A stretch of 64,000 nt of DNA, from NCBI GenBank assembly GCA_022241785.1, contig JAKOMP010000012.1, positions 1 through 64,000 on the forward strand, in the 5' to 3' direction. This document shows positions 11,449 through 28,881 of the stretch, in pieces. Both the position numbers and the translations under genes were made by a program. Source of the stretch: Cyanocohniella sp. LLY. GTDB taxonomy: Bacteria > Cyanobacteriota > Cyanobacteriia > Cyanobacteriales > Nostocaceae. Numbering within the stretch: the first letter of the stretch is position 1; each line of letters opens with the position of its first letter. The notes beneath the pieces were generated by a model. The model worked only from the letters and a program-made list of their open reading frames with translations, was not told where the DNA came from and ran no database searches.

Positions 11449-12831
11449 ATGACACCTCCAGAAAACAACAAGATTGTTGAAGAAAGAAAAGAACTCATTA
11501 AAGAAGTTCTAGACGCTTACCCAGATAAAGCTAAGAAAAAACGCGAAAAGCACTTAAACGTATTTGAAGAAGGTAAGAGCGATTGCGGCGTTAAATCTAA
11601 CGTCAAATCCCTTCCTGGTGTAATGACCTCTCGTGGTTGTGCTTATGCAGGTTCCAAGGGTGTGGTTTGGGGTCCTATTAAGGACATGATCCACATCAGT
11701 CACGGGCCTGTTGGTTGCGGTTACTGGTCTTGGTCTGGTCGTCGTAACTACTACAGTGGTACTACAGGTATTGATACCTTTGGTACTATGGACTTCACCT
11801 CTGATTTCCAAGAAAGAGACATCGTTTTTGGTGGTGACAAGAAACTACTGAAACTGATCCAAGAATTGGATGGCCTCTTCCCTCTGAACCGTGGTGTATC
11901 CATTCAATCTGAATGTCCCATCGGTCTAATTGGTGATGACATCGAAGCTGTAGCTCGCAAGGCTGCAAAAGAAATTGATAAGCCAGTTGTTCCAGTTCGT
12001 TGCGAAGGTTTCCGGGGTGTTTCCCAATCTTTGGGTCACCACATCGCTAACGACATGATTCGTGACTGGGTATTCCCCAGAGCTGATAAAGCTAAAGCTG
12101 ATGGTTCACTGAAGTTTGATTCTACTCCTTATGATGTAGCAATCATTGGCGACTACAACATTGGTGGTGATGCTTGGGCGAGCCGTATCCTTCTAGAAGA
12201 AATTGGTTTGCGTGTAGTTGCTCAGTGGTCTGGTGATGGTACTATCAACGAAATGTTGATGACCCCCAACGTGAAGATGAACCTCATCCACTGTTACCGG
12301 TCGATGAACTACATCAGTCGTCACATGGAAGAAAAATATGGTATTCCCTGGTTGGAATACAACTTCTTCGGTCCTACCAAGATTGCTGAATCCCTACGGG
12401 AAATTGCTTCTAAGTTTGACGAAAAAATCCAAGCAAACGCTGAGAAGGTAATTGCCAAGTATCAGCCGACAATGGATGCGATCGTTACCAAGTATCGCCC
12501 CCGTTTAGAGGGTAAGACTGTCGCTATGATGGTTGGTGGTCTACGTCCTCGTCACGTTGTCCCAGCTTTCCTAGACTTGGGCATGAAGATGATTGGTACT
12601 GGTTATGAGTTCGCTCATAATGACGACTACAAACGTACCACTCACTACATCGAAAACGGCACCATTGTTTATGACGATGTTACCGCTTACGAATTCGAGG
12701 AGTTTATCAAAGCCCTCAAGCCTGACCTTGTAGCTTCTGGTGTGAAAGAGAAGTACGTCTTCCAAAAAATGGGTCTACCTTTCCGTCAAATGCACTCTTG
12801 GGATTACTCCGAGCTTGATTATGGGGTTTGA
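11449..12831 (+). CDS. nifD: Nitrogenase MoFe protein alpha subunit NifD, 5' part only (interrupted)
   Basis: NifD carries FeMo-co and half of the P-cluster. P-cluster ligands Cys64, Cys90 and Cys156 and the FeMo-co ligands Cys282 (IHCYRS) and His449 (MHSWDYS) are all present. The protein is normal to Ser454, then six foreign residues (ELDYGV) and a stop replace the conserved C-terminal tail (normally GPYHG... and about 35 more residues). The break coincides with GGATTACTCCG, the recombination repeat of the nifD element of heterocystous cyanobacteria. As in vegetative cells of those strains, this gene would become functional only after excision joins it to the missing 3' part. Confidence 0.95.
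12801..12811 (+). other. nifD-element border repeat (XisA-type recombination site)
   Basis: GGATTACTCCG matches the 11-bp direct repeat known to border the Anabaena nifD element. It lies at the point where the NifD reading frame leaves the family. One copy is seen. The second copy, the recombinase gene and the 3' half of nifD were not found up to position 64000. Confidence 0.9.
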
Positions 12832-13143
12832 AAGGTAAGAGGTGTCTGCTTTTTTAGCTGTGGGAGAAAAAAAGAGTCTATTTCTAGCCTAAATGCGAGT
12901 TTTAGAATATCTAGGAACAATATATTTTTGCGTCTTGATGCAATATAACTCTTATGGGAACTGGTTTTTGGGTTTTGCTGAATTTTATTTAAATTAAAAC
13001 TGTAAATTGAAATACTTTGTTAAATGATATTTTTTAGATTAAAACAGGCGATCGCTTTCACTTAACAATATGATGATTGAGGAATGGGGGTGTGATTAGC
13101 AAAAGCAAGAATAATTCATCTGGGGTATCTCAAACCTAAATTT

Positions 13144-13224
13144 GCTTTAACGGGGCGCTTGAACTGCTGCAAACAGCCTTTACAATAGACCTTTCGGCAG
13201 TCCGCTCCAAGCGAATTGTTATAC
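13144..13224 (-). repeat. Integron attC-like site downstream of the 13245-13757 gene
   Basis: Read on the minus strand, GTATAAC (near R'' consensus RYYYAAC) begins at 13224 and GTTAAAG (near R' consensus GTTRRRY) ends at 13145. Between them, arms CGCTTG/CAAGCG and ACTGC/GCAGT are complementary, with extra unpaired bases in one arm as in real attC sites. The stretch TAACAATTCGCTTGGAGCGG resembles known cassette attC arms. The site starts 20 bp after the stop of the minus-strand gene, the normal position in a gene cassette. Each core departs from consensus at one base. Confidence 0.6.
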
Positions 13225-13244
13225 TGCGCTAACACCGAATGCCT

Positions 13245-13757
13245 TTACTTAATGCTGTTTTTGGAAGTTCTCTGTCCATACTCTTTCAAAGCAAGTTCTG
13301 CCCACTCATGCAGTGCAGATTTTTCTGAATGCGTATCAATCCACTTCTTTAGATCAAGAATCTGATCTCGAGCTTGAGAGTAATCGTAGGCAGGAATATA
13401 TTGCTTCTCAAAGCATATCAAGTACCACCAAATGAAAGTTTCACCAAATAACTCCGGAATTAACTCATTTTTAACTTGACCATACTTTATTGCAACCCAT
13501 AAGCGTTTATAAAAATTGATTACTTGCCATACATGAAATGATTCTTCAGGATATTTCTCATATATTTCATATAACATATCATTAGGGTTTTTCCTAATAA
13601 GCTGATCGGCTAGAATCCTTGATTTGTGAATGATATCACTGTTAAACTCACGATGAAAGGCAAAAGTTGCTTGCGATTTATTTTGATAGACATTTGCAAT
13701 CCAAGATATAAATCCTCCTACAATGGTTCCAAGAAGTGCAGCTAGAACCTCAGTCAT
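13245..13757 (-). CDS. Hypothetical membrane-anchored protein, possible integron cassette gene
   Basis: The 170-residue protein has one N-terminal membrane helix (about residues 4-22, LAALLGTIVGGFISWIANV) followed by a soluble, aromatic-rich helical region with no family I recognise. Its 3' end is 20 bp from an attC-like site, which suggests it arrived as a mobile cassette. It is the first gene inside the region bordered by the nifD recombination repeat. Confidence 0.6.
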   Translation of the reverse strand: MTEVLAALLGTIVGGFISWIANVYQNKSQATFAFHREFNSDIIHKSRILADQLIRKNPNDMLYEIYEKYPEESFHVWQVINFYKRLWVAIKYGQVKNELIPELFGETFIWWYLICFEKQYIPAYDYSQARDQILDLKKWIDTHSEKSALHEWAELALKEYGQRTSKNSIK

Positions 13758-13936
13758 AATGTTTAAGCCCTCAGCGAAATCAGTACTATCTACCTAATGA
13801 CCTCGAAATATTGTCTAAACTAACAGCTTCAAACCAGCTTAATAGTCTACATAGAATAATATACAGGAATTTTCCGTAACAAACTAGGCGAATATTCGAT
13901 GGGAGATGCGATCGCATTAAACTGTTAGTACCTCAA

Positions 13937-14000
13937 TTAACAATCCGGGTATTTGCTCAAATCCCAATGATTACGCGTTAACAGAACTAATTTACGAGAT
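13937..14000 (-). pseudogene. Remnant C-terminus of a PIN-domain (VapC-like) toxin
   Basis: The frame ends in RKLVLLTRNHWDLSKYPDC, which resembles the last strand and tail of VapC/PIN toxins (LLTRN.. pattern). Upstream codons lose resemblance at once, so only a fragment remains. It lies beside a complete toxin-antitoxin pair. Confidence 0.4.
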
Positions 14001-14110
14001 AGTGGGTAGGGGGAGCATCGTCGTAGACATCGCAACAACAGTCTACTTCTTTGCACCGCGATGTGAAGCTGTTCTAGACTTAGAAAGATGCTATGCAGTT
14101 TATAATTACC

Positions 14111-14362
14111 ATGAGCTATCACGATATTATTACAATTGAGCCGGACAAGCGAGGTGGTAAACCTTGTATTAGACGGATGCGAATTACCGTGTACGATGTT
14201 CTAGGGTGGTTGGCAGCTGGTATGTCTCATGAGGATATATTAGACGACTTCCCTGAATTAACAGAAGAAGACATTAGGGCAAGTCTAGAGTTTGCTGCTG
14301 ACCGTGAACATCGTTTAGTTGCCTCTCTACAAGACTCTAAGCGGACGGTAGGTGGTGTTTGA
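14111..14362 (+). CDS. DUF433 antitoxin (VapB45-like)
   Basis: The 83-residue DUF433 protein has ITIEPDKRGGKPCIRRMRITVYDVLGWLAAGMSHEDILDDFPELTEEDI, a winged helix-turn-helix typical of antitoxins paired with DUF5615 PIN-like toxins. The start is taken at ATG 14111 (MSYHD), the family norm, rather than at 14093. It overlaps the next gene by 4 bp (TTGA), so translation is coupled. Confidence 0.85.
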   Translation: MSYHDIITIEPDKRGGKPCIRRMRITVYDVLGWLAAGMSHEDILDDFPELTEEDIRASLEFAADREHRLVASLQDSKRTVGGV

Positions 14363-14691
14363 AGCTGCTTTTTGATCAAAATTTGAGTCGCAAGCTAGTA
14401 ACTCAATTAGCGGACGTTTTTCCTGATTCCAGTCACGTTCAGTTTCATGGGCTGGAAGTGAAGACTGATACCGCAATATGGGAATTTGCTAAAATCAATG
14501 ATTTTTGCATCGTCACTCAAGATGTAGACTTTGCCGAAAGAAGCCGCTTGTTAGGTTCTCCGCCTAAAGTTGTATGGCTACGTTGCGGAAATGCACCAAC
14601 AAAACAAGTTGAATCTCTACTTCGTTCTGGGGTGGAAGTAATTCAAAAGGTCTTGAATAATCCAAGTCTGCATTGTTTAGAATTGTACTAA
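14359..14691 (+). CDS. DUF5615 PIN-like toxin
   Basis: The 110-residue protein starts with TTG and has the DUF5615/Mut7-C-like PIN motif set: N-terminal LLFDQNLSRKL, central acidic TQDVDFAERS, and LRCGNAPT. Such proteins are predicted RNases acting as toxins neutralised by the upstream DUF433 partner. The overlap with that gene supports a two-gene operon. Confidence 0.85.
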   Translation: MKLLFDQNLSRKLVTQLADVFPDSSHVQFHGLEVKTDTAIWEFAKINDFCIVTQDVDFAERSRLLGSPPKVVWLRCGNAPTKQVESLLRSGVEVIQKVLNNPSLHCLELY

Positions 14692-14796
14692 AGCTTTGCA
14701 GGAGATGATCTGTGATATGGACAAGAAGTAGACCGTTGTAGCGATCGCTTGACAATAAACTAGGCGATCGCAAATTTGCTTTAAAACCCTGTCACG

Positions 14797-15213
14797 CTAG
14801 AACTCCCATACATGATCTGGATCATCGAGTGCTGCTTTCACAGTAGACAAATCAGCAAGGTTTTTGAAGGGACTGGATTTTGCCAATTCTACAATTGCAT
14901 TTAGTGCCAAGCCAAGCTGTTGATTATTACCGGAAGATACTGCTTGATCAACTACCTGAAAAAGTGAATGAAAGTTTTTAGCACGCTCATCAAAAGAATG
15001 TTCAAGATAACCAATTAATAAATCACGTTTTACATTAATTTCAGCAAGAGTAGTTTTTTCCCAAGCATCGATTTGACGGCGGTTAGTTTTCTCTTCTTCA
15101 GCTATTTGTAAGTATTCAGTCCATACCTGAACAATATCATTTAAACATTGGATAGGACTAGAGAATGCTTCAACGCCCTAGACAAAATTAATCGGTGACT
15201 TTTTACTTACCAT
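14797..15213 (-). pseudogene. Hypothetical gene with an early in-frame stop codon
   Basis: An ATG at 15213-15211 opens a frame that meets TAG at 15180-15178 (codon 12) and then stays open for 125 codons to a second stop at 14799-14797. The protein after the stop is coherent and helical (NDIVQVWTEYLQIAEEEKTNRRQ, HSLFQVVDQAVSSG, ALDDPDHVWEF). A single CAG-to-TAG change would explain the break. It starts 7 bp after the end of the gene at 15221, so the two were an operon. No function is recognised. Confidence 0.65.
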
Positions 15214-15220
15214 ATATTCT

Positions 15221-15789
15221 TTAAATGGAACGGTACTTTGCCTTTAACCCTGCTGTATTTTGATTTAGATTGCCCTCAGTATCTAGAACTGGAGTTTTCA
15301 TAATTTCGGCTAATGCCTTAATTAAAAGTGCGACTTGTTGAAATTTTACTGCATCTCGCTCACGCACAAAAGGTTTTGACTCAAGCTCTATCAAACCCTC
15401 AATCGCTTTATTATTTAAGGTTTGTACAATATCTTTTAGCTCTGTGATTCGCCGTTGTACTTGTCCAAGAAAATTCTCAAATGCATCAAGTTTTGCGATT
15501 TCAGTATTTGCTTTCGCTTCGTAATTACGCGCCTCAGTCAAAGCTTTTTCGCCTTGTCCGCCTAAAACAAAACCACCAATCATTAAGGCGGGCCCTACTG
15601 CAATTCCACCTAAGACAAGAGTCCCTAACGCCATACCACCACCACCGGCTGCTAAGGAACCACCACCTAGCCATGCAAGAGTAGCATTCCAAGCAGCAGC
15701 ACCACTAAGTCCACCAATTGCTGCTCCAGTACTCGCTGTACCAAAAAGTCCCACAAGAGCTACTGTACCTTGACCTGCTGCGTATGCTT
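15221..15789 (-). pseudogene. C-terminal remnant of a Gly-rich membrane-associated hypothetical protein
   Basis: The readable frame begins after a stop at about 15792 with SEKKAYAAGQGTVALVG. It continues through a Gly/Ala-rich hydrophobic segment (TASTGAAIGGLSGAAAWNA, LGGGSLAAGGG) into a helical C-terminal domain ending KAKYRSI. Related cyanobacterial and other bacterial proteins, as I recall them, have a longer N-terminal coiled-coil, which is missing. A GTG at 15754 would give 177 residues but removes part of the conserved block. It is therefore probably a 5'-truncated gene. Confidence 0.55.
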
Positions 15790-16036
15790 TTTTTTCAGAT
15801 ATTATTCACAACTTTGATGCATATAATAATTAAATGAAAATGAGAGCGATCGCTTGATAGAACATGAAGCATAGAGTGTGCGATCGCCCTTAAAAAATCC
15901 AAGCATTGGTTGTCTCCTAGTGCAGCACCAGATTTTGAGAGTTCATCTAAACTTCATGGGCGGGCAGTTTAATTGATCTTTTATGTTTAAACTTATGGGA
16001 ATAATAGATCAACTGGGTTGAGCAACATGGTTATCT

Positions 16037-18238
16037 ATGGATCGAACACCTCCTAATTCTAAGTCTTGTGCTTGTCGCCATGTGAAACGTTGCCGTGCTA
16101 AAGAAGCTGGCAAGCTTTTTCTCTGGTTTCCCATTCCCCATACTTTGAAAAAGGTCACTTCCTATTTGCAGCAGTTTGCCCTCAAGTATGAACTGATGCC
16201 AGATCGTCCTGGTCTCAGTTTGGATTGTAGATCTGGACAGGCCCCAGAAATTGCTCGTAACCTAGCTCGACTCCTAGCACCGAGAGAATTAAGAGAAACG
16301 CAAGTCCTTTTTCTTCGCGGCGCTATCCAGCCTCAACTTCAGGATTTTAGTGATATTACCTCATTACACCGCTTCATTAAGTTAAGCCAGTCAGATTGGC
16401 TGGTGGAAATGCTGAACAAGGAACGATTCACCAGTTACTTCCAACCAATTGTCTCAATTAAAGATACATCGCAGATATATGGCTATGAATCGCTTTTGCG
16501 GGGACTGGATGAACAAGGAAATTTAGTACCACCAGTCCCCCTATTTGAGTTAGCTACTGAGTCCGGACTTTTACCCCAACTTGACCAAATTGCCCGTCTT
16601 AGTACTATCACTCAAGTAAGCAGCCATCAATTACAGGGGCATATCTTCATTAATTTTGCACCAACGGCACTTTATGACCCGGCTTTTTGCTTACGTAGTA
16701 CAGTTGAAGCCATAGATCGCGCAGGTATTTCCCATGAAAGAATAGTCTTTGAAGTTATGGAGTCAGATAATCCCCAAGATTTGGCTCACCTTAAAGCAGT
16801 ACTGCAATACTACCGGGATAGTGGGTTCTTAGTTGCTCTTGATGATTTTGGTTCTGGCTATTCTAGCCTTAATTTGCTGCATCAGTTACGCCCAGACTTT
16901 ATTAAATTGGACATGGAATTAATTCGAGATGTGCATCAAGATTTGTACAAAGCTTCCATTACCGAAAAGATTTTAGAAATTGCTCAAAAGTTAAAAATCC
17001 AGACTGTTGCAGAAGGTATTGAGTGCATTCAAGAACTAAACTGGTTGCGAGAAAGAGGGGCTACATATGCTCAAGGTTATTTGATTGCTAAACCTAGTGC
17101 TGTACCTGTTATTGCTACTCTTAACTTTGATCAAGTTTCGTTTTCTAGTGAACCAGTTCAACAACAAGTTCAACATCAAAGCGAAGCCGAGCGCATTGTG
17201 GCTGCGGTAACTCAGCGTATCCGCCAATCGTTGGAATTAGATTATATCTTGCAAACCACAGCAGATGAGGTGCGACAACTGTTTGCTGTAGACCGAGTAG
17301 TTATCTATCAGTTTGAGCCAGATTGGAGTGGGATGGTGGCTGTCGAATCGGTAGTCACAGCGTGCATCTCTATTTTGGGATTTCATGTGATGGATACCTG
17401 CTTTCAATCCACTCGTGCAGATTACTACCAGCAAGGTAATACTAGAGCAATAGAGAACATTGAAACTGCAAATTTATCGCCTTGTCACGTTGAACTGCTG
17501 CGGAGGTTGCAAATTCGGGCTAACTTGGTTGTTCCTATCTTGCAGCAAGAACGTTTGTGGGGACTATTGATTGCTCACCAATGCAGTCATCCTAGACAAT
17601 GGCAGCAATCGGAAGTTAACTTGTTTAGCCAGTTAGCGAGTCAAGCGGCGATCGCAATTCAACAATCAGAACTTTACCATCAATTACAACAAGCAAATCA
17701 AGAATTACAACGCCTTGCAGCTTCTGATGGTTTAACTCTAGTGGCAAATCGGCGTTGCTTTGATGATACTCTGAATCTGGAATGGCAAAGATTAGCGCGA
17801 GAGCAAGCCTTTCTATCTGTGATTTTATGTGATGTTGATTATTTTAAACTTTACAACGATACACATGGGCATTTAGCAGGAGATGATGCACTACGAAATG
17901 TGGCGACAGTGATTTCTCAGACTGTGAAACGTCCTACTGATTTAGTGGCTCGATATGGTGGGGAAGAATTTGCTGTGATTTTACCAAATACTAATGCTGA
18001 AGGTGCGATCGCTGTTGCTAGAAATATTCAAACTAATATGAATGCATTATTGTTGCCTCATCCCAGTTCTCAGGTTAGTCAATTTATCACCCTCAGTCTT
18101 GGGGTTGCAACCACCATTCCCCAAAGCCAATCATCTCCTGAAACCTTAATTGCTGCTGCTGACCAGGGACTCTACCAGGCAAAAGCACAAGGCAGAAATT
18201 GTGTGGTGCAGATTAATTGCAAAGATACGGACACTTAA
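16037..18238 (+). CDS. EAL - DXCF cyanobacteriochrome GAF - GGDEF protein (bifunctional c-di-GMP enzyme)
   Basis: In order, the 733-residue protein has an undefined N-terminus, an EAL domain at about residues 125-370 (ESLLR 151-155, DDFG 269-272, AEGIE 325-329; catalytic residues present), a GAF domain at about 395-555, and a GGDEF domain at about 570-725 with intact GGEEF (641-645). The GAF domain has the canonical bilin Cys483-His484 and a DXCF motif (DTCF, Cys455), 28 residues apart, the spacing of DXCF cyanobacteriochromes such as TePixJ. It should therefore be a blue/green-type photoreceptor controlling c-di-GMP synthesis or breakdown. Photochemistry is inferred; the motifs are seen. It is monocistronic. 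Confidence 0.88.
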   Translation: MDRTPPNSKSCACRHVKRCRAKEAGKLFLWFPIPHTLKKVTSYLQQFALKYELMPDRPGLSLDCRSGQAPEIARNLARLLAPRELRETQVLFLRGAIQPQLQDFSDITSLHRFIKLSQSDWLVEMLNKERFTSYFQPIVSIKDTSQIYGYESLLRGLDEQGNLVPPVPLFELATESGLLPQLDQIARLSTITQVSSHQLQGHIFINFAPTALYDPAFCLRSTVEAIDRAGISHERIVFEVMESDNPQDLAHLKAVLQYYRDSGFLVALDDFGSGYSSLNLLHQLRPDFIKLDMELIRDVHQDLYKASITEKILEIAQKLKIQTVAEGIECIQELNWLRERGATYAQGYLIAKPSAVPVIATLNFDQVSFSSEPVQQQVQHQSEAERIVAAVTQRIRQSLELDYILQTTADEVRQLFAVDRVVIYQFEPDWSGMVAVESVVTACISILGFHVMDTCFQSTRADYYQQGNTRAIENIETANLSPCHVELLRRLQIRANLVVPILQQERLWGLLIAHQCSHPRQWQQSEVNLFSQLASQAAIAIQQSELYHQLQQANQELQRLAASDGLTLVANRRCFDDTLNLEWQRLAREQAFLSVILCDVDYFKLYNDTHGHLAGDDALRNVATVISQTVKRPTDLVARYGGEEFAVILPNTNAEGAIAVARNIQTNMNALLLPHPSSQVSQFITLSLGVATTIPQSQSSPETLIAAADQGLYQAKAQGRNCVVQINCKDTDT

Positions 18239-18461
18239 AAAGGAATTTTATTCTCTAAAAATGCTCAAGGTTTGTCATGAAATATATTTACTGATTGTAC
18301 ATTATGTTTCACAGCGATTACATTTTTATCCTCACGAAAAAGCTTTAGTCTGTTTGTGAGAATTACAAAAAAAGGTATTTGGAGATAACCTATAAATATC
18401 TGGCGCTGACATGCCAACGCTAAAAATTTTGGGTAAAATTAGCAACGTCAGATATCAGAGT

Positions 18462-19040
18462 TCAGTCGGGGAAAGCCACACCAGTCATGGGGTCACGGAT
18501 ATACAACCCTAGTGTGAGACTACGCATCACCTCATCCCAAACCGGTGTAAGTTGTTCTGCTTGATCTGCCCAATAATCAAAGGTAATCAAGCATTGAACA
18601 TTTGACCCCAAACCCACGCAAGTCCGCGAAAACGCTTCCCGTGGTTCTTCTTGAGTATCAATAAACTTAATCTCTGTCCAGACAATTTTAGCCGTTTGGC
18701 GCTTGACGCTCATAATCTCTCCCCTGGCAATGACGTTGCGCTCGTCTTCATCCATAATTTTCTTCAAAGTGGATTTTAGCGGAAAGAGGCTCCAGTCACG
18801 GGGTGGTAGAGGATTGAAAGATACTTCCAAGCAGCAATCATCTTTGGGCGGTTTTTGATCGCGGAACTTGAAAGATTTTTCTTGTGGCTCAAAAAACCAA
18901 TTATGGGGAACATTGAAGCGAACAGCCCCGCGATTGGCTACAAAAATCTTGTAGCCTGATGGAGATTCCCAGCGATGGTCAGGCTTTAGTTCAAGCGTTT
19001 CTTTAATCCACTGGAGATTGCTTTTTTTACGCTTTGCCAT
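18462..19040 (-). CDS. Conserved cyanobacterial hypothetical protein
   Basis: The 192-residue soluble protein begins with a basic segment (MAKRKKSNLQWIKE). The body is a likely alpha/beta fold with PSGYKIFVANRGAVRFNVPHNW and a C-terminal VWDEVMRSLTLGLYIRDP. The pattern FNVPHNW...LEVSFNPLP recalls proteins of the DUF1795/PsbP-like kind, but the match is weak and I do not assign it. No operon partner. Confidence 0.6.
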   Translation of the reverse strand: MAKRKKSNLQWIKETLELKPDHRWESPSGYKIFVANRGAVRFNVPHNWFFEPQEKSFKFRDQKPPKDDCCLEVSFNPLPPRDWSLFPLKSTLKKIMDEDERNVIARGEIMSVKRQTAKIVWTEIKFIDTQEEPREAFSRTCVGLGSNVQCLITFDYWADQAEQLTPVWDEVMRSLTLGLYIRDPMTGVAFPD

Positions 19041-19507
19041 AGTATTTTTACTAGTCTGCTGAAAATTGCGTAGGCGAACTTGTGGTAGACATCGCTTAAA
19101 TTGTGTTGTAGGCGATCGCCCACTTTGTCAATGGTACCAAAAAATTGCTATGAGGCTAGCTAGCCTGATGGTCAGTTCTGCGCTACGTCAATCGATTTTC
19201 TCTTGCTTGCTCTTTCTTACTCTATTAAATGTATTTTTTCAAAGACTTAATACGTTTTGTTACTTACAGATGAGTGCAATATCGATTACTAGTGAAGTCG
19301 ATTTTTTGCAATGTTATAGTGCTAATTTTTCTGGGAAAGCTAAATTTAACTTTCTGTATTTCTCATTCCCACGGCTTAATGCAAGATATCAACCTCCCAC
19401 GGGCGCAGTTTTCGTTTCCGCAAAATATCAAAACAACACATAATAATTTCCCGTTTTTTGTTTTTTTTATTTTGAAATTTTTAACCCATTTTTAGATAAG
19501 GTTTTTT
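19041..19507. other. Gene-free leader upstream of the histidine kinase
   Basis: AT-rich intergenic DNA with one HIP1 site near 19112. Overlapping frames here give Phe/Leu-rich products without family signals. It presumably carries the promoter for the kinase at 19508. Confidence 0.5.
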
Positions 19508-21463
19508 ATGTCTTTGGTTAACCTCAAAAAAATTTTTCATAAAAAAGAGTTACCCCCTATCCTGCAAGAGTTAGTCTATCAACTGAACATTGCCATTGAT
19601 GTTGAACTAGTGGACGGAACACAACTTATAACCATTGGGAAGCAAACTGCCAACAAGCGATATCCAATTGAGGTGTCAGGAGAAATTATTGGTTGGGTCA
19701 TAGGAGAAGAAAAAGTCAGCTTAGTGGCAATGTTGCTTTCCTTGTTAGTAAAACAAGAAGCCGAGAAAAAAGAACTAGCAAAAGAATTATTGGAGCGATA
19801 CCAAGAAATTGATTTGTTTGAAGATATCTCAACGCAACTGACGACAAGCTTGAATAAGCGACAGGTTGCCCAGATGGTACTCCAAGAAATGAGTCAATTA
19901 ATTGAATCTTCTGCGGGAATGATTTTACTTTTTACTGGGGATACACCTGTGTTTGAAGTCATAGCCGAATATGGACTATTGTTCGATCACAGTCAACCCC
20001 AATTAAGCAAGGGAATTATTGACAACATTATACAATCCGGTCGGGCAGAACTGATCAACGATGTGCCAGCCGATGTGCGATCGCAAGGACAGGAAAAAGT
20101 CAATGCTTTGATTTGCGTACCCATGCGATCCAAAGAACGAGTCATCGGCGCGATCGCTATTGGCACAACTAAAACCGACGCCTACAAAGCTGAACACCTC
20201 AAATTTGTGAGTATCTTTGCCTCACAAACTGCCATAGCGATGGAAAAAGCTTTGCTGTACGAACAAAGCACCCAAGCAACAGCCCAAGCCAAGGCCCAGA
20301 CAGAAAAACTTCAGCAGGCGCTGCAAGATTTGCAACTAGCACAAACCCAGCTAATCCAAAGCGAAAAAATGTCAAGTTTAGGGCAACTGATAGCCGGAGT
20401 TGCTCATGAAATCAATAACCCAGTTAACTTTATTTGCGGCAACTTGAGGTATGTTTCGGAATACGCCCAGGACTTGTTGCATCTGCTGCAAGAATATCAA
20501 AAATTCTTACCCGTAACTCCCCTAAATTTGGCATCAGAAATCGAAAATATCGATGTGGAATTTATCATGCAGGATCTTCCCAAACTGCTAGATTCCATGA
20601 AAATAGGCACAGATCGCATTACAGAAATTGTCAAATCCCTGAAAAACTTCTCCCGCCATGACGAAGCGCAATTGAAAGCTGTCAACATCCACGATGGTAT
20701 TGACGGGACACTAATGATTCTACGTCATCGCCTCAAAGCTGCTAATAACCATACAGAAATTGAAATCGTTAAACACTACGCCCAACTTCCCTTAATTGAA
20801 TGCTACCCCGGCAAGTTAAATCAGGTGTTTATGAACATCCTGGCAAATGCCATTGATGCTTTAGAAGAAGCAATGGGCAATAATGCCCTAGCCCACCCCA
20901 CTCCCCAAATCACCATTCGTACCCAAAAACTAGACAACCAATGGATTGTGATTCGCATCGCTGACAACGGCCCAGGTATGAAAGATGAAGTAATTCGCCG
21001 CATTTACGATCCATTTTTCACCACCAAAGACATTGGTAAAGGAACTGGATTAGGCATGGCCATCAGCTATCAAATTATTGTCGAAGAACACCGGGGAATT
21101 CTCAAATGCCGTTCGCAACCAAATGAAGGAACAGAATTTTGGATTCAGATTCCAGTGGATTGTGCAGTTGGTGAGGCGGTTGAATCACACAGTAGCATGA
21201 GTTCTCTCAGCAAAAGTGCAATTGCTATGCCGACTTCCACAACCGATGCTGACGGCTTTATCTCATCAACCACTCCAATATTCAAACCAACTGAACTACT
21301 ACTCCGTCACGTTCAACTGATTCGGCAACTTTCGCAGCAAAATCCAGATGTGGACACAACATCACCTGAACAAATTTACCAAATGTTCCAACGTCACCCC
21401 ATTTCCTTAAAGCTTTACGCCACCTTGTTGTCCTGGTTTTGTTGTCCTCATCCTAGCCAATAA
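19508..21463 (+). CDS. GAF-domain sensor histidine kinase
   Basis: The 651-residue protein has an N-terminal segment, a GAF domain at about residues 105-245 (SSAGMILLFTGDTP, ALICVPMRSKERVIGAIAIG), a coiled linker, an HisKA-like dimerisation helix with phospho-acceptor His300 (GVAHEINNPVNF), and a HATPase domain (NILANAIDALEEA, DNGPGM, GKGTGLGMAIS). The His-Glu-Ile-Asn-Asn-Pro box marks the cyanobacterial HPK4-like class. It lacks membrane segments, so it is cytosolic. It starts a signalling cluster with the next two genes, 65 bp ahead of the second kinase. Confidence 0.92.
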   Translation: MSLVNLKKIFHKKELPPILQELVYQLNIAIDVELVDGTQLITIGKQTANKRYPIEVSGEIIGWVIGEEKVSLVAMLLSLLVKQEAEKKELAKELLERYQEIDLFEDISTQLTTSLNKRQVAQMVLQEMSQLIESSAGMILLFTGDTPVFEVIAEYGLLFDHSQPQLSKGIIDNIIQSGRAELINDVPADVRSQGQEKVNALICVPMRSKERVIGAIAIGTTKTDAYKAEHLKFVSIFASQTAIAMEKALLYEQSTQATAQAKAQTEKLQQALQDLQLAQTQLIQSEKMSSLGQLIAGVAHEINNPVNFICGNLRYVSEYAQDLLHLLQEYQKFLPVTPLNLASEIENIDVEFIMQDLPKLLDSMKIGTDRITEIVKSLKNFSRHDEAQLKAVNIHDGIDGTLMILRHRLKAANNHTEIEIVKHYAQLPLIECYPGKLNQVFMNILANAIDALEEAMGNNALAHPTPQITIRTQKLDNQWIVIRIADNGPGMKDEVIRRIYDPFFTTKDIGKGTGLGMAISYQIIVEEHRGILKCRSQPNEGTEFWIQIPVDCAVGEAVESHSSMSSLSKSAIAMPTSTTDADGFISSTTPIFKPTELLLRHVQLIRQLSQQNPDVDTTSPEQIYQMFQRHPISLKLYATLLSWFCCPHPSQ

Positions 21464-21528
21464 ATTTTACTGAAAGCATTCTCTTGTTAACAGTCCCACT
21501 TACATCCACCACGAAGGAAACCTCAATC

Positions 21529-24500
21529 ATGCCTAGCCAACTTGAAGAATCTAGCCGTCATCTTTTAGAACAATGTCCCATTGGTCTTGTACTTTGCCAA
21601 ATAGATGGGACACTAATTGATATCAATCCCGCCTTTGCTGACATTTTGGGGCGTACTGTCCCGGAAACTCTCAACCTTAACTACTGGCAAATTACTTCTG
21701 AGAACCACATCACTACCGGGCAAGCCATACTAGAAAATCTAGAACAAACTGGTAGCTCCGGGCCTTACGAAAAAGAATACATCCACAAAGACGGACACTT
21801 GGTTCCAGCCAGAGTCTGGGGACAGATGATTGAAAAGGATGGGCAAAAACTGATTTGGTCGAGTGTAGAAGACATTAGCGACCTGAAAACAGCCCAACAG
21901 GAACACCAAAAAACTGCAAAAATCTTGAAACAGAGCGAAGCACGATACCGCTCTTTGGTGACAACTAATACACAGATTATTTGGGTTAGCACACCAGAAG
22001 GAATTTGCTTTGAACTAAAAGACTGGATTGCTTACACAGGTCAAAGCCTAGCTGAAGCTGAAAACGGAGGTTGGATTGATGCCGTTCATCCTGATGATCG
22101 TGGTTATACCGGAGAAGCTTGGGGTATTGCTGTAGCCAACCTTAGCCAATATCAAATTGAATACCGCATTCGGGGCAAAGATGGCAACTATCGCTACTTT
22201 TGGGTTTGGGGCGCTCCTGTTATCGAAGAAGATGGTAGTGTCCGCGAGTGGATTGGTACTTGTACAGATATTCACGATCGCAAGCTAGCAGAGGCTGAAA
22301 ATCAATGTCTTCAGGAACGATATTGCTCTTTAGTCACTGCCATATCCCAAATTGTGTGGGCAACAACACCAGAAGGACTGGGGATTGGGAATGAAATGCT
22401 AACTTGGGTAGCTTATACAGGTCAAACAGCAGCAGAAGTTGATGGTTGGGGCTGGTTAAATGCGGTTCACCCCGATGACCGAGCCCACTCCCAAGCTGCT
22501 TGGAATGCAGCAGTGGAGAACCAAACTATCTACCAAACTGAATACCGTCTGCGGGGGAAAGATGGCTATTATCGTTACTTTTGGGTTTGTGGCGCTCCTG
22601 TAGTCAAAGAAGATGGCAGCGTCCGCGAATGGATTGGTACTTGTACAGATATTCACGATCGCAAACTGGCAGAGGCTGAAAATCAACGTCTTCAGGAGCG
22701 ATATCGCTCCTTAGTCACAGCCACCTCCCAAATTGTGTGGGCAACAACACCAGAAGGACTGGGGATTGGGAATGAAATGCTAACTTGGGTAGCTTATACA
22801 GGTCAGACTGACGCAGAAGTTGATGGTTGGGGGTGGTTAAATGCTGTTCACCCCGATGACCAGGCCCACTCCCAAACTGCTTGGAATGCAGCAGTGGTAA
22901 ACCGAGATATCTACCAAACTGAATATCGTATTCGGGGTAAGGATGGTACCTATCGCTATTTCTCGGTTTGTGGCGCTCCCGTATTGGACGAAGATGGCAG
23001 CATTCGGGAATGGATTGGCACTTGTACCGACATTCACGATCGCAAGTTGGCAGAAGCCGAAAATCAACGGTTATTGGATATGTTAAATCATTCTAGTGAT
23101 GCCATTATTGTGCGTGACATGGCGGACAAAATTTCTTACTGGAATCAAGGTGCAGAAAGTCTTTACAGTTTGACCCGTGAGCAAGTCAAAGACCAATGTA
23201 TTCATCAATTTATCCAAAAAACCTTTCCCAAACCCAAAGCAGAAGTAATGACAGAGTTATTACAGCAAGGCAATTGGGAAGGCGAAGTGCAACACGGCAC
23301 CTGTAATGGCAAACTAATCACAGTGCAAAGCCGTTGGACATTACAACGGGATTTCGACCGCCAGCCCTGCGCCATACTGGAAATTAATACTGATATTACT
23401 GCCCGCAAACAAGCAGAAATTGCTTTACGCCAATTAAATCAAGAACTGGAAGCCAGAGTTGTAGAACGCACAGCCGCATTACAAAATACCCTCGCAGAAG
23501 CCCAAGGGTTAAATGCCATTTTAGATAACTTAGCGGATGGTTTGTTGGTAGTGGACACCACCGGACAAATTACCCACTTCAATCCTGCTTTTTTAGCCAT
23601 GCACGGATTGACAGCAACTGCCCTCAATGGACACTACCAAGAAGTCCCTATATCTGGTTTAGCAAAACTGATTGAACAAACTCAGTCCCATCCCCAAGAG
23701 GTATTTACTGCCGAAATTAGATTGGCCCAAGAACATGTTGGTCAGGCAGTAGCAACTGCCATCTTTAAGCAGACCTTAGTTAACGAACCTGCTGTGTGCT
23801 TTGGTGCGGCGTTATTGGTTCGAGATGTGACAGCAGAAAAGGAAATTGACCAGATGAAAACCGATTTTATCTCCACAGTTTCCCATGAGTTGCGGACACC
23901 ACTGACTTCGGTTCTCGGTTTTGCGTCCATTATTCAAGAAAAGTTGCAAACCGATATCTTCCCGATGTTACCTGTAGAAGACCGCAAGTTGCAAAAAACC
24001 ATCAAGCGCGTAGGTGACAATCTCAACATTATTGTCTCGGAAGCGGAACGACTGACATCTTTAATTAACGATGTGTTAGATATTGCCAAAATGGAAGCTG
24101 GTAAGGTGGAATGGCAGATGCAACCCATCGATCCGGGTGAGTTATTGGATTGGGCAACCACTGCTACAGCAGGATTATTTGAAACTAATGGCTTAAGTCT
24201 AATTACTGAGATTGAAGAGAATTTACCGCAAATAGTAGGCGATCGCAACCGTCTATTACAAGTCCTCATCAACCTGATTTCCAATGCTGTGAAATTTACC
24301 GAATACGGTTCTGTTACCTGCCGTGTTAAACAAGAAAATGACGGTATTTGCGTCAGCGTCATCGATACAGGTGTGGGCATTGCACCCGAAGACCAGCCAA
24401 AAGTATTTGAGAAATTCCGCCAAGTTGGTGATACCCTCACCGACAAACCCAAAGGCACAGGTTTAGGGCTGCCCATCTGCAAACAAATCATCGATCATCA

Positions 24501-25278
24501 CAGCGGGAGAATTTGGGTAGAAAGTGAAACTGGTCAAGGCAGTACATTTTCATTCATTGTCCCCACTTACAAAAGTGACCATACCAGCAGCAAACTAAAT
24601 CTGGATGCCCTAGTCAAACAACTAAAAGAACACGTCATCACCACAAACGCTGTACCAGACCAAAACCGCAAAACTATCTTGATTGTTGATGATGATATCA
24701 ACATTCGCGAACTGCTGCGTCAACAACTGGAAAATGAAGGCTACAATGTTCGAGAAGCTAAAAATGGCATGAATGCAATTCAACAGATTAAAATAGCCCG
24801 TCCTGATTTAATTCTTTTAGATGTGATGATGCCTCAAATCAGCGGTTTTGACGTGGCAGCCGTCCTCAAAAATGATCCTTTGACAGCCGATATTCCTATC
24901 ATTATTCTGTCAATTATTGAAAATAAAGAAAGAGGCTATCATATTGGTATTGATCGCTATCTCACCAAGCCTATCGACTCAGAGAAACTGATTAACGAAA
25001 TCGGCTTACTACTTTCCCAAGGAACTTCTAGTAAAAAGGTCTTAGTTGTTGATAAAAACGCCTCAACTTTAAAAGTTATTTCTGATGTATTACAAACTCA
25101 GGGATATAACGTAATTGAAGCCTCTAATCCCCAAGAATGTATCCATAAAGCCCTCTCAGCCAAACCTGACATGATTATCATCGATTCTATCTTCTCCCAA
25201 GAAACCGAACTGGTAAAAACCCTACGGTTTGAAAAGGAGTTGGAGAATGTATTCTTCATCATGCTTTCAGATCGTTGA
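21529..25278 (+). CDS. Multi-PAS hybrid histidine kinase with one full and one truncated receiver domain
   Basis: ATG at 21529 (MPSQLEES) is preferred to an upstream TTG. The 1249-residue protein has an N-terminal PAS, three tandem PAS-PAC units (starting about residues 139, 264 and 391; the last two are exactly 127 residues each and nearly identical), two more PAS units, HisKA with His786 (VSHELRTPL), HATPase (NLISNAVKF, DTGVGIAP, GTGLGLPI), and a receiver with Asp1098 (LLDVMMP). A second receiver-like domain has Asp1219 but ends 30 residues later, without the switch Thr and Lys. It probably signals with the neighbouring response regulator. Confidence 0.9.
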   Translation: MPSQLEESSRHLLEQCPIGLVLCQIDGTLIDINPAFADILGRTVPETLNLNYWQITSENHITTGQAILENLEQTGSSGPYEKEYIHKDGHLVPARVWGQMIEKDGQKLIWSSVEDISDLKTAQQEHQKTAKILKQSEARYRSLVTTNTQIIWVSTPEGICFELKDWIAYTGQSLAEAENGGWIDAVHPDDRGYTGEAWGIAVANLSQYQIEYRIRGKDGNYRYFWVWGAPVIEEDGSVREWIGTCTDIHDRKLAEAENQCLQERYCSLVTAISQIVWATTPEGLGIGNEMLTWVAYTGQTAAEVDGWGWLNAVHPDDRAHSQAAWNAAVENQTIYQTEYRLRGKDGYYRYFWVCGAPVVKEDGSVREWIGTCTDIHDRKLAEAENQRLQERYRSLVTATSQIVWATTPEGLGIGNEMLTWVAYTGQTDAEVDGWGWLNAVHPDDQAHSQTAWNAAVVNRDIYQTEYRIRGKDGTYRYFSVCGAPVLDEDGSIREWIGTCTDIHDRKLAEAENQRLLDMLNHSSDAIIVRDMADKISYWNQGAESLYSLTREQVKDQCIHQFIQKTFPKPKAEVMTELLQQGNWEGEVQHGTCNGKLITVQSRWTLQRDFDRQPCAILEINTDITARKQAEIALRQLNQELEARVVERTAALQNTLAEAQGLNAILDNLADGLLVVDTTGQITHFNPAFLAMHGLTATALNGHYQEVPISGLAKLIEQTQSHPQEVFTAEIRLAQEHVGQAVATAIFKQTLVNEPAVCFGAALLVRDVTAEKEIDQMKTDFISTVSHELRTPLTSVLGFASIIQEKLQTDIFPMLPVEDRKLQKTIKRVGDNLNIIVSEAERLTSLINDVLDIAKMEAGKVEWQMQPIDPGELLDWATTATAGLFETNGLSLITEIEENLPQIVGDRNRLLQVLINLISNAVKFTEYGSVTCRVKQENDGICVSVIDTGVGIAPEDQPKVFEKFRQVGDTLTDKPKGTGLGLPICKQIIDHHSGRIWVESETGQGSTFSFIVPTYKSDHTSSKLNLDALVKQLKEHVITTNAVPDQNRKTILIVDDDINIRELLRQQLENEGYNVREAKNGMNAIQQIKIARPDLILLDVMMPQISGFDVAAVLKNDPLTADIPIIILSIIENKERGYHIGIDRYLTKPIDSEKLINEIGLLLSQGTSSKKVLVVDKNASTLKVISDVLQTQGYNVIEASNPQECIHKALSAKPDMIIIDSIFSQETELVKTLRFEKELENVFFIMLSDR

Positions 25279-25389
25279 TTGCTTGGGGACTTGAAGGGGA
25301 GAAGGGGATAAGAAAAAAAATACTTCCCTTTTTCTCTCCTCCCTGCCTCTACGAGTAGTTTGTAAATCAAATAGAAAGGATTACTATAT

Positions 25390-25767
25390 ATGACTCAGAA
25401 AGTTCTGATTGTTGACGATGAACCCAACATCGTAATTTTAATGGAACAAGCCTTAGAAACTTTAGAAGACGAGGGCGTTGAACTGCTCACAGCCAGAAAC
25501 GGACAAGAAGCACTCGAAACTATTAAAATTGAAAAACCAAATTTAGTTTTCCTTGATGTGATGATGCCTAAAATGAGTGGTTTAGAAGTTTGTCAAGTTG
25601 TTAAAAAAGACTTGCAAATGACTGATATCTACATTGTGATGTTGACAGCTAAAGGACAAGAATTTGATAAACAAAAAGGAATTGATGTTGGTGCTGACCT
25701 ATATCTTACTAAACCATTTCGTCCCAAAGAAGTACTAGAAAAATCAAGACATGTCTTGGGCTTTTGA
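25390..25767 (+). CDS. CheY-like single-domain response regulator
   Basis: The 125-residue receiver domain has acidic pocket VDDEPN, phospho-acceptor Asp56 (FLDVMMP), switch region MLTAKG and Lys108 (YLTKPF). There is no output domain. It lies 111 bp downstream of the hybrid kinase in the same direction, so it is a likely phosphotransfer partner of that kinase or of the GAF kinase before it. Confidence 0.92.
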   Translation: MTQKVLIVDDEPNIVILMEQALETLEDEGVELLTARNGQEALETIKIEKPNLVFLDVMMPKMSGLEVCQVVKKDLQMTDIYIVMLTAKGQEFDKQKGIDVGADLYLTKPFRPKEVLEKSRHVLGF

Positions 25768-26121
25768 TAGTGTTAAATTCCCATGATTATCAAGATCATT
25801 GCCAGTTCTTCGCTTTGTATCCTCATTTTTTCAACTCACATATATTTGACACTTCCGGGTTAAGATTTTAAGTATTTAGAAATATCAAAGTTAAATTCTG
25901 TATATGATGGCGATCGCCTAAAGTGAATAGTAGGCAAGCTTGATTTATCCAATCCTAGCAATTTGCCGATAGGGTGTGCGATCGCCTCCGGCGCTGCGCT
26001 GAGTCTTTCAGACACGCTACGCGAACGCGCAATCGCTCAGTTGGATTTTCCATAGTAAAATATTGACATCTGTGACAAAATAGTTATGTTGTCCTACAGC
26101 TAATGTAATCGGCTAAAACCT
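25768..26121. other. Intergenic DNA with HIP1 sites and a common Nostoc palindromic repeat
   Basis: No gene is seen. HIP1-type GCGATCGC words occur at about 25911 and 25978. A GC-rich repeat lies near 25990-26030 (CGCTGCGCTGAG, then GACACGCTACGCGAACGCG), of the kind dispersed in Nostoc genomes. Confidence 0.55.
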
Positions 26122-26691
26122 ATGGTTTCTACCATCAAACGCCGCTACAGTTTAGATGAATACCGTGCGCTCGAAGAAAAAACCGAAGGACGCAACGAGT
26201 ATCGAGATGGAGAAATTGTACCTCTGCCTGGAGGACCGCTCAAGTACAGTCGGATCAGTGGAAATATTTTCGCATTTCTCAAATTTCTGCTAGGTGATAC
26301 TCAATTTGAGCCAATTAATAGTGATTTGCGGCTATGGATTCCTGAACATCAGCGCGGAGTATATCCAGACGTGATGGTTTTTGAGGGTGAACCACAACTG
26401 AATGATCATCGCTTAGATGAAGTATTGAATCCTATTTTGATTGTAGAAGTTTTATCCCCTTCCACCGCAGATTACGAGCGAAAAAGTAAATTTCGGATGT
26501 ATCGTTCAATTTTGAGTTTTAGCGAATATCTATTAGTTGAGCAAGATGAACCTTTTGTAGAACGCTACAGTAAAAAAGACCAAGGTTGGTTACTCGGTGA
26601 TTTTAACAGCTTAGAGCAATCTATTTCCTTAGATTCAGTTGGGGTAGAATTACCACTTGGGGAAATTTATCGTGGTGTTGTGTTTGAGTAA
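26122..26691 (+). CDS. Uma2 family endonuclease (DUF820, PD-(D/E)XK fold)
   Basis: The 189-residue protein is typical of the large cyanobacterial Uma2/DUF820 family. It has N-terminal YSLDEYRALEEKTEGRNEYRDGEIVPLPGG, the acidic active-site segment YPDVMVFEG, and the ExK-like strand PILIVEVLSPSTADYERKSK. These are predicted nucleases, often present in many copies in multicellular cyanobacteria; the biological substrate is unknown. It is monocistronic. Confidence 0.88.
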   Translation: MVSTIKRRYSLDEYRALEEKTEGRNEYRDGEIVPLPGGPLKYSRISGNIFAFLKFLLGDTQFEPINSDLRLWIPEHQRGVYPDVMVFEGEPQLNDHRLDEVLNPILIVEVLSPSTADYERKSKFRMYRSILSFSEYLLVEQDEPFVERYSKKDQGWLLGDFNSLEQSISLDSVGVELPLGEIYRGVVFE

Positions 26692-26898
26692 AATAGCTGG
26701 TCTAATCAGGAGTTTGGGAAGAGCGATCGCACCATGTAAACACTAAGTTGTAACTTATGTCTGTAGTATTTAGTTACATAAGCATTAGCCTTGATAAACT
26801 GCTAAAAATTCATAGATAATAGCTATTAGGCTTGTGAGATTTACTAGCAACAGAAAGTATGGCTAGGTAACATTTTTAATTAACTAGAGGTAAAAATT

Positions 26899-27165
26899 GT
26901 GAATATCCAACTGAAAGCGGAATACGAGCAATTTATACAAACTCGAATTGCTACAGGTAAATATGAAAATGCTGAAGAGGTGATTGTTAAAGCATTGAAA
27001 CTGCTGGAGGAATGGGAGAAGGGTTATCAGGAATGGGAGGAAGAAACTAAGAAAAAACTAGAGGCTGGGCTGGCTTCTATCGAACGTGGAGACGTAGTAG
27101 ATGGTGAAGTGGTAATAGCACAATTGGAGGAGAAATTACGCAAAGCGCGTGAGGCTCAAGAATGA
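26899..27165 (+). CDS. ParD-like antitoxin
   Basis: The 88-residue protein starts with GTG. Its ribbon-helix-helix N-terminus (YEQFIQTRIATGKYENAEEVIVKALKLLEE) matches ParD/CC2985-type antitoxins, and a charged C-terminal helix would wrap the toxin. It overlaps the toxin gene by 4 bp (ATGA), which is standard for type II pairs. Confidence 0.85.
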   Translation: MNIQLKAEYEQFIQTRIATGKYENAEEVIVKALKLLEEWEKGYQEWEEETKKKLEAGLASIERGDVVDGEVVIAQLEEKLRKAREAQE

Positions 27166-27569
27166 TGGAATACTTGATTTCCAAGGAAGCCAGCCAAGAT
27201 TTAGATGAAATTTTGGATTATTTTTTAGTTCGTAATATCAACGCTGGCGAAAGATTTATTCGAGAATTTAATAAGAAGTGCCAAAATATAGCTCAATTTC
27301 CAAATCTAGGGCGAAGTTACACCAAGTTTGACCCCAGACTGAGAGGTATACCATTGGATGGCTACATTATTTTTTATCGAGTTTTTGAAGACCGTGTTGT
27401 GATTGTGCGAGTAGTTAGTGGTTATCGGGACTTAGAATCTATACAGCGGTTCCCGCTATTATGCAATACAGTTTTTCTCCCGGACCCTCTCCCAGCAAAG
27501 CTTTCAGTTTTGAGGATGTACCTCATAGCTGCTGGAAGTGCTGTATTTGCAGATGTGGACGATGAGTAG
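27162..27569 (+). CDS. RelE/ParE-family toxin carrying an in-frame MITE near its C-terminus
   Basis: Residues 1-94 are a complete ParE-type fold (YLISKEASQDLDEILDYFL, FPNLGRSY, YIIFYRVFEDRVVIVRVVSGYRDLESI). The next 34 residues are encoded by a MITE, and the last residues (FADVDDE) resume ParE-like sequence. Removing the 100-bp element plus one TA joins the flanks in frame to give ...GYRDLESIFADVDDE and a 101-residue protein, the usual ParE length. Toxin activity with the 34-residue insertion is uncertain. It pairs with the upstream ParD. Confidence 0.88.
   Translation: MMEYLISKEASQDLDEILDYFLVRNINAGERFIREFNKKCQNIAQFPNLGRSYTKFDPRLRGIPLDGYIIFYRVFEDRVVIVRVVSGYRDLESIQRFPLLCNTVFLPDPLPAKLSVLRMYLIAAGSAVFADVDDE
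27444..27543 (+). mobile_element. 100-bp MITE inserted in the ParE gene
   Basis: Ends CAGCGGTTCCCG... and (reverse complement) CAGCACTTCCAGC..., flanked on both sides by TA. These ends match those of the IS630-type element at 28366-29381 (CAGCACTTTCC), which also sits between TA dinucleotides. It is therefore probably a non-autonomous derivative moved by that transposase. The insertion adds 102 bp and keeps the reading frame. Confidence 0.85.
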
Positions 27570-27804
27570 ATTGTAAGTGTTAACACAAGTTACAACTGAT
27601 ACCCGTATATATATCAACCGCGATCGCACTTTTATCAAATTTACGCGTGTGGCGATCGCCTTCTGAAGACACTCATAATTGCTCAGGTGCATTGTATAAA
27701 ACACATCCTATTTCGGAGATGCGATCGCGCTTTGATTCCTTCGATGTTAACTGTAAGTATACGTTATTATTAAGAATAACTATTTTTATTTGTTTTATTA
27801 ATAT

Positions 27805-28386: not shown

Positions 28387-28881
28387 AGTACAGTAGCAGC
28401 AGTTAGCAAACCAATTTCGCAGATGCATAGGATTGATGAGGTTTAAAGCAACTGCAATCAATACATCCACCATTTGAGTAGTTTTTGGAGAAAAAGTTTT
28501 GATAAAAGCTTTAAGCTGTGACCACCAATGTTCAATGGGATTAAAATCTGGAGAATAAGGAGATAGATTGATGACACTGGCACCAACAGATTCAATTATG
28601 GGTGTAATTTCATTGATCTTATGGGCAAAGAGATTGTCCATGATGACAACTGCACCTGCCCATAATTGAGGTACTAACAACTTTTCGATAAATACACGAA
28701 AAGCATTACTATCCATGGAATCATCTAGTGTCATTACAGCCAATACTTTATCCATACTAATGGCACCGATAACAGTGACTTTGTTACCTCGATAAAATGG
28801 TTTTAAATCATAGACTCTACTTCCTTTTTCGCTGCGAGCATGATTACGCATTAACCCAAGTAACAAGCCCATTTCATCCAA
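28381..28881 (-). CDS. IS630 transposase, DDE catalytic part (OrfB)
   Basis: This frame encodes the RNase-H-fold catalytic domain. The first Asp is in FLDEMG, whose codons start upstream of the apparent ATG in the same frame. The second Asp is in VVIMDNLFAHK, and the Glu in FNPIEHWWSQLK. It is normally translated as a fusion with the upstream OrfA through -1 frameshifting. The stop lies 16 bp from the left end of the IS. Confidence 0.92.
   Translation of the reverse strand: MDEMGLLLGLMRNHARSEKGSRVYDLKPFYRGNKVTVIGAISMDKVLAVMTLDDSMDSNAFRVFIEKLLVPQLWAGAVVIMDNLFAHKINEITPIIESVGASVINLSPYSPDFNPIEHWWSQLKAFIKTFSPKTTQMVDVLIAVALNLINPMHLRNWFANCCYCTS

Follow-up and report, generated by a model that had tools for sequence, protein, structure and literature searches.

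The window analysed here is a 64,000-nucleotide stretch of DNA from Cyanocohniella sp. LLY, a cyanobacterium of the Nostocaceae (contig JAKOMP010000012.1, called C221 below, positions 1 to 64,000). It carries a gene for a 733-aa protein with an N-terminal (NT) domain followed by EAL, GAF and GGDEF domains. The gene lies 3.2 kb inside DNA that interrupts nifD. Taken together, the evidence points to a light-controlled switch of cyclic di-GMP (c-di-GMP) whose gene is cargo of a nifD excision element, a reading to which we assign a probability of roughly 0.7. The location in the nifD element is the less expected point, and it raises the interest of the gene.

Domains, photosensor and predicted mechanism

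Pfam finds the EAL, GAF and GGDEF domains in this order in the open reading frame (ORF; Table 1), as a first-pass annotation of the sequence had proposed, and every motif named there lies at the residue given: E151, D269-D270-F271-G272 and E326 of the EAL domain, DTCF, Cys483-His484 and GGEEF. Its claim that both enzyme domains keep their catalytic residues is likewise borne out by the sequence. E151, E239, D269, D270, E326 and Q346 are invariant in all 25 aligned full-length loci, the window included, and so are C455, C483, H484 and GGEEF; N206 and K290 show no variation in 17 aligned sequences. The eight EAL residues E151, N206, E239, D269, D270, K290, E326 and Q346, which we take to be the metal-binding and catalytic set, are all kept here. 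Because the motif set is conserved across 25 full-length loci, it is not a chance occurrence. The DDFG of the window protein reads DDLG in 24 of the 25. An RxxD motif of the I-site type (R632 to D635, the Arg kept in 16 of the 25 loci) suggests product inhibition of the cyclase. Judged by its sequence, the gene is real and conserved, and its product is probably a functional light-to-c-di-GMP enzyme.

The GAF domain is assigned to the DXCF type of cyanobacteriochrome (CBCR) and is a probable blue/green sensor. It matches TePixJ (3vv4, E 2.7e-33; 4fof by Foldseek, TMt 0.85, 39% identity), and the 28-residue spacing from Cys455 to Cys483 equals that of TePixJ in an ungapped alignment. Typical DXCF domains are described as binding phycoviolobilin (PVB) and switching between blue and green (PMC11284453). 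The genome contains a gene of the bilin reductase family PF05996. Asp453, Phe456, Trp508, His514, Arg520 and Trp522 are kept in all 38 distinct GAF domains of this fusion (one of them from the truncated locus L045), and at residue 484, 36 of them have His and 2 have Tyr.

Several features of the family weigh against a light-sensing role; the changes at sites 443 and 468 and a member without Cys455 would fit a GAF domain that binds no bilin, leaving a light-blind c-di-GMP enzyme. Relative to 52 other DXCF GAFs with the canonical Cys, two sites have changed: site 443 is Cys in 34 of the 38 (Ser, Tyr or Trp in the other 4) versus Trp in 35 of the 52, and site 468 is Asn in 35 of the 38 versus Arg in 44 of the 52. 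Thr459 and Arg460 stand in place of TePixJ H498 and W499. One ortholog, from the Nostoc cyanobiont 210A of Peltigera membranacea (L089, 8001-10211), reads MDTGF, with Gly for the DXCF Cys; it is a natural single-Cys variant. The fusion GAFs form one clade (support 100) in a tree that took 16 of the 38 and admitted weak GAFs from three loci only; the groups next to this clade have weak support and also contain GAFs that are not of the DXCF type, so that the exact place of the domain among CBCRs is tentative. A light-blind protein is nevertheless unlikely, since Cys483 is present in 38 of the 38 GAFs and Cys455 in 37. In a TePixJ crystal, R507, at the place of site 468, is described as reaching the chromophore of a symmetry-related molecule (PMC6955287), which is no sign that its own pocket needs it; the change at 468 therefore need not be harmful. 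H498 and W499 contact the B-ring propionate according to the same source, so these contacts probably differ here. Cys443 was considered as a third pocket Cys; Cys occurs at this place in 6oap as well, whose residue at the DXCF position is Tyr.

The full-length model has a mean predicted local distance difference test (pLDDT) score of 83.0 and a predicted template modelling score (pTM) of 0.50. VIA places the EAL domain on solved phosphodiesterases (for example MorA, 4rni: Z 28.8, 246 aligned, 2.4 A), and the GGDEF domain aligns with WspR (3i5b: Z 28.7, 168 aligned, 1.5 A), on which Foldseek also puts it. In the Foldseek search with the whole model, the six highest rows all come from the Idiomarina phytochrome-activated cyclase (chains of it), on which the overall superposition is poor (TM 0.21-0.26).

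The likeliest function suggested by these data is that of a DXCF CBCR controlling c-di-GMP through the cyclase directly and perhaps through the phosphodiesterase. The protein would be soluble and act as a dimer. (i) Cys483 would carry the bilin, phycocyanobilin that is probably isomerized to PVB. (ii) Cys455 would add reversibly to bilin C10, so that the dark state absorbs blue light and the photoproduct green light. (iii) The change of photostate would travel along the helix that joins GAF to GGDEF and alter GGDEF pairing in the dimer. (iv) Blue light should thereby raise cyclase activity. This is the likeliest step, because the helix is continuous and the Cph2 CBCR and SesA provide precedents. 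(v) The EAL phosphodiesterase would lower c-di-GMP; it may switch oppositely or act as a steady brake, and may also answer to its own NT domain. Light control of the EAL domain is doubtful because the EAL-GAF linker is predicted to be disordered, and possible by analogy with SesC. That light governs both activities is an inference, and the linker calls for caution.

The N-terminal domain and the origin of the fusion

The first-pass annotation called the protein EAL-first. The EAL domain does precede GGDEF, but a conserved NT domain stands before it. AlphaFold2 predicts this domain with pLDDT 83-94 from residue 21 and below 50 before that point. Pfam gives no family above its cut-off over the domain in the window protein and five relatives. 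Structure searches with the isolated domain return middling matches to common ferredoxin-like folds (best Foldseek E 0.026; best VIA Z 7.9, 68 aligned, 2.1 A), and the claim is limited to a predicted ferredoxin-like fold of uncharacterised function.

Three more specific identities were considered and rejected. A degenerate GGDEF was proposed because five tandem GGDEF-EAL structures (5m3c, 4rnh, 4rnf, 5xgb and 9cmf) align with the model from residue ~23 to 356-365. It is not supported: profiles of 15 GGDEFs that precede EAL and of 65 other GGDEFs score 13.1 and 12.9, whereas the highest score among 30 column-shuffled controls is 18.6 and 19.5, respectively; reversed profiles give 12.3 and 12.5. 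No BLUF entry occurs in the top 50 rows of either search with the isolated domain, and BlrP1 rows for the full model span residues 125-367 only. PII-like matches reach Z 7.7, in an arrangement that is common according to VIA.

Within the family, at least 25 of the 145 genomes surveyed carry a full-length match to the fusion, and in a sample of 386 genomes from the phylum at least 11 do, the own genome included in both; 7 and 2 candidates per genome were scored, respectively, so that these are lower bounds. At least 14 full-fusion loci are found among the best 80 loci, some of them overlapping genomes of the family survey. Hosts include Nostoc, Mojavia, Dendronalium, Tolypothrix, Chlorogloeopsis fritschii PCC 6912, Nodosilinea, a Leptolyngbya, a Halomicronema and the filamentous cyanobacterium CCP3. 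In 24 loci compared, no conserved neighbours are common beyond groups of three to four close relatives. In plasmid records no place covers 80% of the protein, and one record has an NT-EAL-like stretch.

The NT-EAL half also exists as free-standing proteins of ~380-400 aa, with 50-54% identity in 10 cyanobacterial loci and, among the matches listed, 35-44% (best segment) in Rubrobacter, Gemmatimonadetes, Deltaproteobacteria, Aquisalimonas and others. An NT domain before EAL, falling in no Pfam family above cut-off, is thus common to bacteria of several other groups. These proteins share the NT and EAL domains with the window protein and differ in having neither CBCR nor GGDEF. Their Cys motif is mostly CxxC, in contrast to the CxCx5C of the fusion: counted by rows, some of which share one genome, CxCx5C occurs in 40 of 41 fusion rows and CxxC in 21 of 32 other NT-EAL rows. 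A branch with support 100 in the EAL tree separates 11 fusions, together with 20 free NT-EAL proteins, from the remaining sequences. By these comparisons, the EAL domain with its NT domain belongs to the free-standing EAL family.

The order EAL-CBCR-GGDEF is shared with Cph2, and the window protein could be a Cph2 descendant that has shed the N-terminal phytochrome part. Its GAF and GGDEF domains are 47-57% identical to those of six Cph2-like proteins, and a single clade of fusion and Cph2 GAF-GGDEF parts is not rejected (p-AU 0.618), so this half may or may not share Cph2's origin. The EAL domain contradicts such a descent. It is 26-32% identical to those of the same six proteins, and its NT domain is common to free EAL proteins instead. 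One clade of fusion EALs with seven strict Cph2 EALs is rejected (p-AU 0.00086), as is one with a looser Cph2-like set (p-AU 3.5e-24); this looser set included two deltaproteobacterial proteins, and the free proteins used in the same test included L020 and another L145 frame, neither of them NT-EAL. Both the EAL and the GAF-GGDEF topology tests took 11 of the 38 distinct fusions. Descent from Cph2 is accordingly very improbable, the least probable of the alternatives.

A free NT-EAL gene lies just upstream of a GAF-GAF-GGDEF gene in 2 of 17 loci, L073 and L107 (among the 17, L105 and L169 probably come from a single genome, L100 ends soon after the gene and L147 is split). The GAFs of L073 and L107 lack the DXCF Cys and have Cys-Leu in place of Cys-His, and thus are no clear case of a pre-fusion photoreceptor. 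Three NT-EAL proteins (L081, L082 and L100) fall inside the fusion clade by their EAL domains and carry no GAF or GGDEF; their C-terminal half was probably lost secondarily. Locus L085 has only a 442-aa frame (5467-6792; part of EAL, GAF and part of GGDEF) and looks broken or misassembled. Outside cyanobacteria, NT-EAL frames lie beside or overlap GGDEF-bearing frames in L153 (7536-9590), L138, L140 and L143.

Such an origin would also suit a protein with two inputs, in which light controls the cyclase only and the NT-EAL half answers another signal (redox, metal or ligand), the two being integrated. The EAL domain comes from a free-standing family with its own conserved NT domain and no CBCR, the linker region overlaps blocks of low pLDDT (57, 34 and 56) while GAF and GGDEF are joined by one helix, and CxC or CxxC motifs are common in NT-EAL proteins. 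Retention of the full-length fusion in at least 25 of the 145 family genomes speaks against it, as does SesC, which shows that one CBCR can govern both activities. Two inputs are a serious contender, at somewhat less than even odds. If the light-controlled switch is as proposed, a CBCR-cyclase has been joined to an EAL of another lineage whose Cys-bearing NT domain offers a possible second input.

The nifD interruption and its cargo

nifH (10432) and nifD (11449) precede the photoreceptor gene; both were named by eye, nifD with the support of PF00148. A survey (PMC4874684) describes a variant of the nifD element located at position 1355 (+/- 2 bp). The present interruption resembles it in its break at nifD position 1353, an XisA-like recombinase and a nifD tail beside nifK. 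The tail, nifK and the 472-aa recombinase (by eye) are found on contig C60 (L210, 817-2476). The best-matching relative at the locus among 20 searched, G010 (DNA identity 90-96%), has a complete element consisting of the nifD 5' part, 8.2 kb, an XisA-like gene and the nifD tail. Its recombinase is 92% identical to that on C60, and the left end of the interruption is common to both genomes. The cargo in G010 includes homologs of both genes that flank the photoreceptor gene, which is missing between them; the gene therefore either entered the element or was lost from that of G010. The present interruption differs from the G010 element in carrying the light-type c-di-GMP enzyme and a histidine-kinase cluster, both absent there, and in having its two ends on different contigs (C221 and C60).

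Contig C60 starts inside an insertion sequence (IS) identical over 194 bp to the copy in the window. Because of this, an element of ~18.7 kb that bridges C221 and C60 is suggested (15.5 kb, 1.0 kb of IS and 2.2 kb). In seven of the contigs listed, base 1 already falls within a copy of the IS that is 100% identical, which makes contig joins across the IS doubtful. Two observations count against a continuous element. C221 runs past the IS into chromosomal genes (ccmK-like, valS-like and purM-like, by eye), so the element ends may be parted by rearrangement or misjoined. In C. fritschii PCC 6912 (L101) the fusion gene lies ~3 kb from the cluster found here beyond the IS, with order and orientation unchanged, and C221 may for this reason be right across the IS; among 24 loci, other window genes recur near the fusion gene only in this one. 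The discontinuity between left and right may be a true rearrangement via the IS or a misjoin.

The whole nif context could also be an assembly artefact in which chromosomal photoreceptor DNA was misjoined to nifD. The arrangement in C. fritschii, which looks like an older chromosomal place, would agree with this, as would the doubtful joins. The join in question, however, lies beyond the photoreceptor gene on its right-hand side, at 28.4 kb. The stretch from 12832 to the start of the gene matches nothing else in the genome, with 40 of 163 candidates scored and every one of the 52 matches listed. The genes on either side of the photoreceptor gene are nearly identical to G010 element cargo (Table 1), and the left end is shared. 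An artefact is distinctly unlikely. That the gene is cargo of the nifD element in this genome is shown for the left side, and continuity to the right end is presumed.

Table 1. Features of the window bearing on the photoreceptor gene and the nifD interruption.
Feature	Coordinates	Strand	Basis or remark
nifD 5' part, ends after 460 aa near 3' end	11449..12831	+	
GGATTACTCCG at nifD break, nifD position 1353	12801..12811	+	tail copy on contig C60 reads GAACTACTCCG
Left part of nifD interruption, holds photoreceptor gene	12812..28362	.	
110-aa element gene	14359..14691	+	99% identical to gene in G010 nifD element
Whole gene, NT-EAL-GAF(DXCF)-GGDEF, 733 aa from ATG	16037..18238	+	ORF, Pfam, alignment
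CxCx5C motif (Cys11, Cys13, Cys19)	16067..16093	+	invariant in 17 fusions
NT domain, ~110 aa, predicted beta-alpha-beta-beta-alpha-beta (ferredoxin-like)	16106..16381	+	AlphaFold2
EAL domain, residues 121-353	16397..17095	+	Pfam E 1.8e-57, above cut-off; catalytic residues kept
Low-confidence EAL-GAF linker, residues 367-382	17135..17182	+	model
GAF domain, residues 401-541, DXCF CBCR type	17237..17659	+	Pfam E 7.3e-24, above cut-off
DTCF motif, D453-T454-C455-F456; Cys455 is the second Cys (TePixJ Cys494)	17393..17404	+	alignment
Cys483-His484, canonical bilin-binding pair	17483..17488	+	alignment, conservation
Continuous predicted helix joining GAF to GGDEF, residues 524-561	17606..17719	+	model
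GGDEF domain, residues 561-721	17717..18199	+	Pfam E 7.6e-51, above cut-off
GGEEF (641-645) and RPTD, I-site type (632-635), in GGDEF domain	within 17717..18199	+	alignment
192-aa element gene	18462..19040	-	98% identical to gene in G010 nifD element
Repeated IS, IS630-like by eye	28363..29386	-	

A cluster of histidine kinase, multi-PAS hybrid kinase and receiver genes (by eye) occupies 19508-25767. It has a counterpart far from nif in G006 (76-80% DNA identity) and is a second insertion in the same element. A short repeat of ~105 bp lies at ~27.44-27.55 kb. At 22 other fusion loci (~0.4 to 8 kb per side; one is the truncated L085), no nif genes, xisA or neighbouring element genes are found.

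Homeostasis of c-di-GMP is reported to affect heterocyst development (PMC8682488). Should heterocysts excise the element, the photoreceptor gene would be lost from their chromosome, and light-to-c-di-GMP signalling would be removed by a DNA rearrangement during cell differentiation, vegetative cells keeping the gene. Since a c-di-GMP enzyme would be deleted in the very cells whose development c-di-GMP affects, the location offers a test case for whether the cargo of interruption elements matters. No paper that treats the nifD element together with c-di-GMP, or excision with a photoreceptor, was found among the open-access papers searched. We hold it as a tentative idea, short of an even chance, that a colour-sensing c-di-GMP switch was recruited onto the nifD element and is lost from heterocysts, and that its chain may integrate light with a redox or metal signal.

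Comparison with known light-responsive c-di-GMP proteins

SesC and SesA of Thermosynechococcus are similar to the window protein in CBCR control of c-di-GMP, according to published descriptions. In SesC, GGDEF precedes EAL. SesA differs in having one CBCR-GAF and a GGDEF only. Blue light is described as raising the cyclase activity of SesA, and SesC as a bifunctional enzyme in which colours affect both activities oppositely (PMC8846402 among the sources).

Cph2 of Synechocystis is the closer counterpart in architecture. Its C-terminal half has the order EAL-CBCR-GGDEF, with a dual-Cys CBCR before an active GGDEF, and this CBCR activates its own GGDEF in blue light. A Cph2-like protein of Synechocystis salina (L102) has both DPCF and CH. 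The domain order that the first-pass annotation considered unusual is indeed present in the window protein, yet it is not new, as Cph2 ends in the same way. The string EAL-CBCR-GGDEF also occurs in the text of PMC5812497; alternative wordings of the order were not found in the open-access papers searched. The window protein lacks the N-terminal GAF-GAF-GGDEF part of Cph2, its ORF starting with the NT domain and EAL; it has 733 aa as against about 1290, an EAL domain of another lineage and an extra NT domain. Two further proteins (L071 and L106, about 1590 aa) are Cph2-like and have a longer stretch separating EAL from the last GAF. Four genomes of the family survey with open frames of 1590-1603 aa give no full-length fusion match, a possible case of exclusion.

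The novelty therefore lies not in the order but in a compact variant whose EAL comes from a different lineage and is preceded by an uncharacterised NT domain. The arrangement EAL-CBCR-GGDEF now occurs with two EAL lineages, which suggests that it is a workable order for light-controlled c-di-GMP signalling, and the compact 733-aa protein provides an object for its study.

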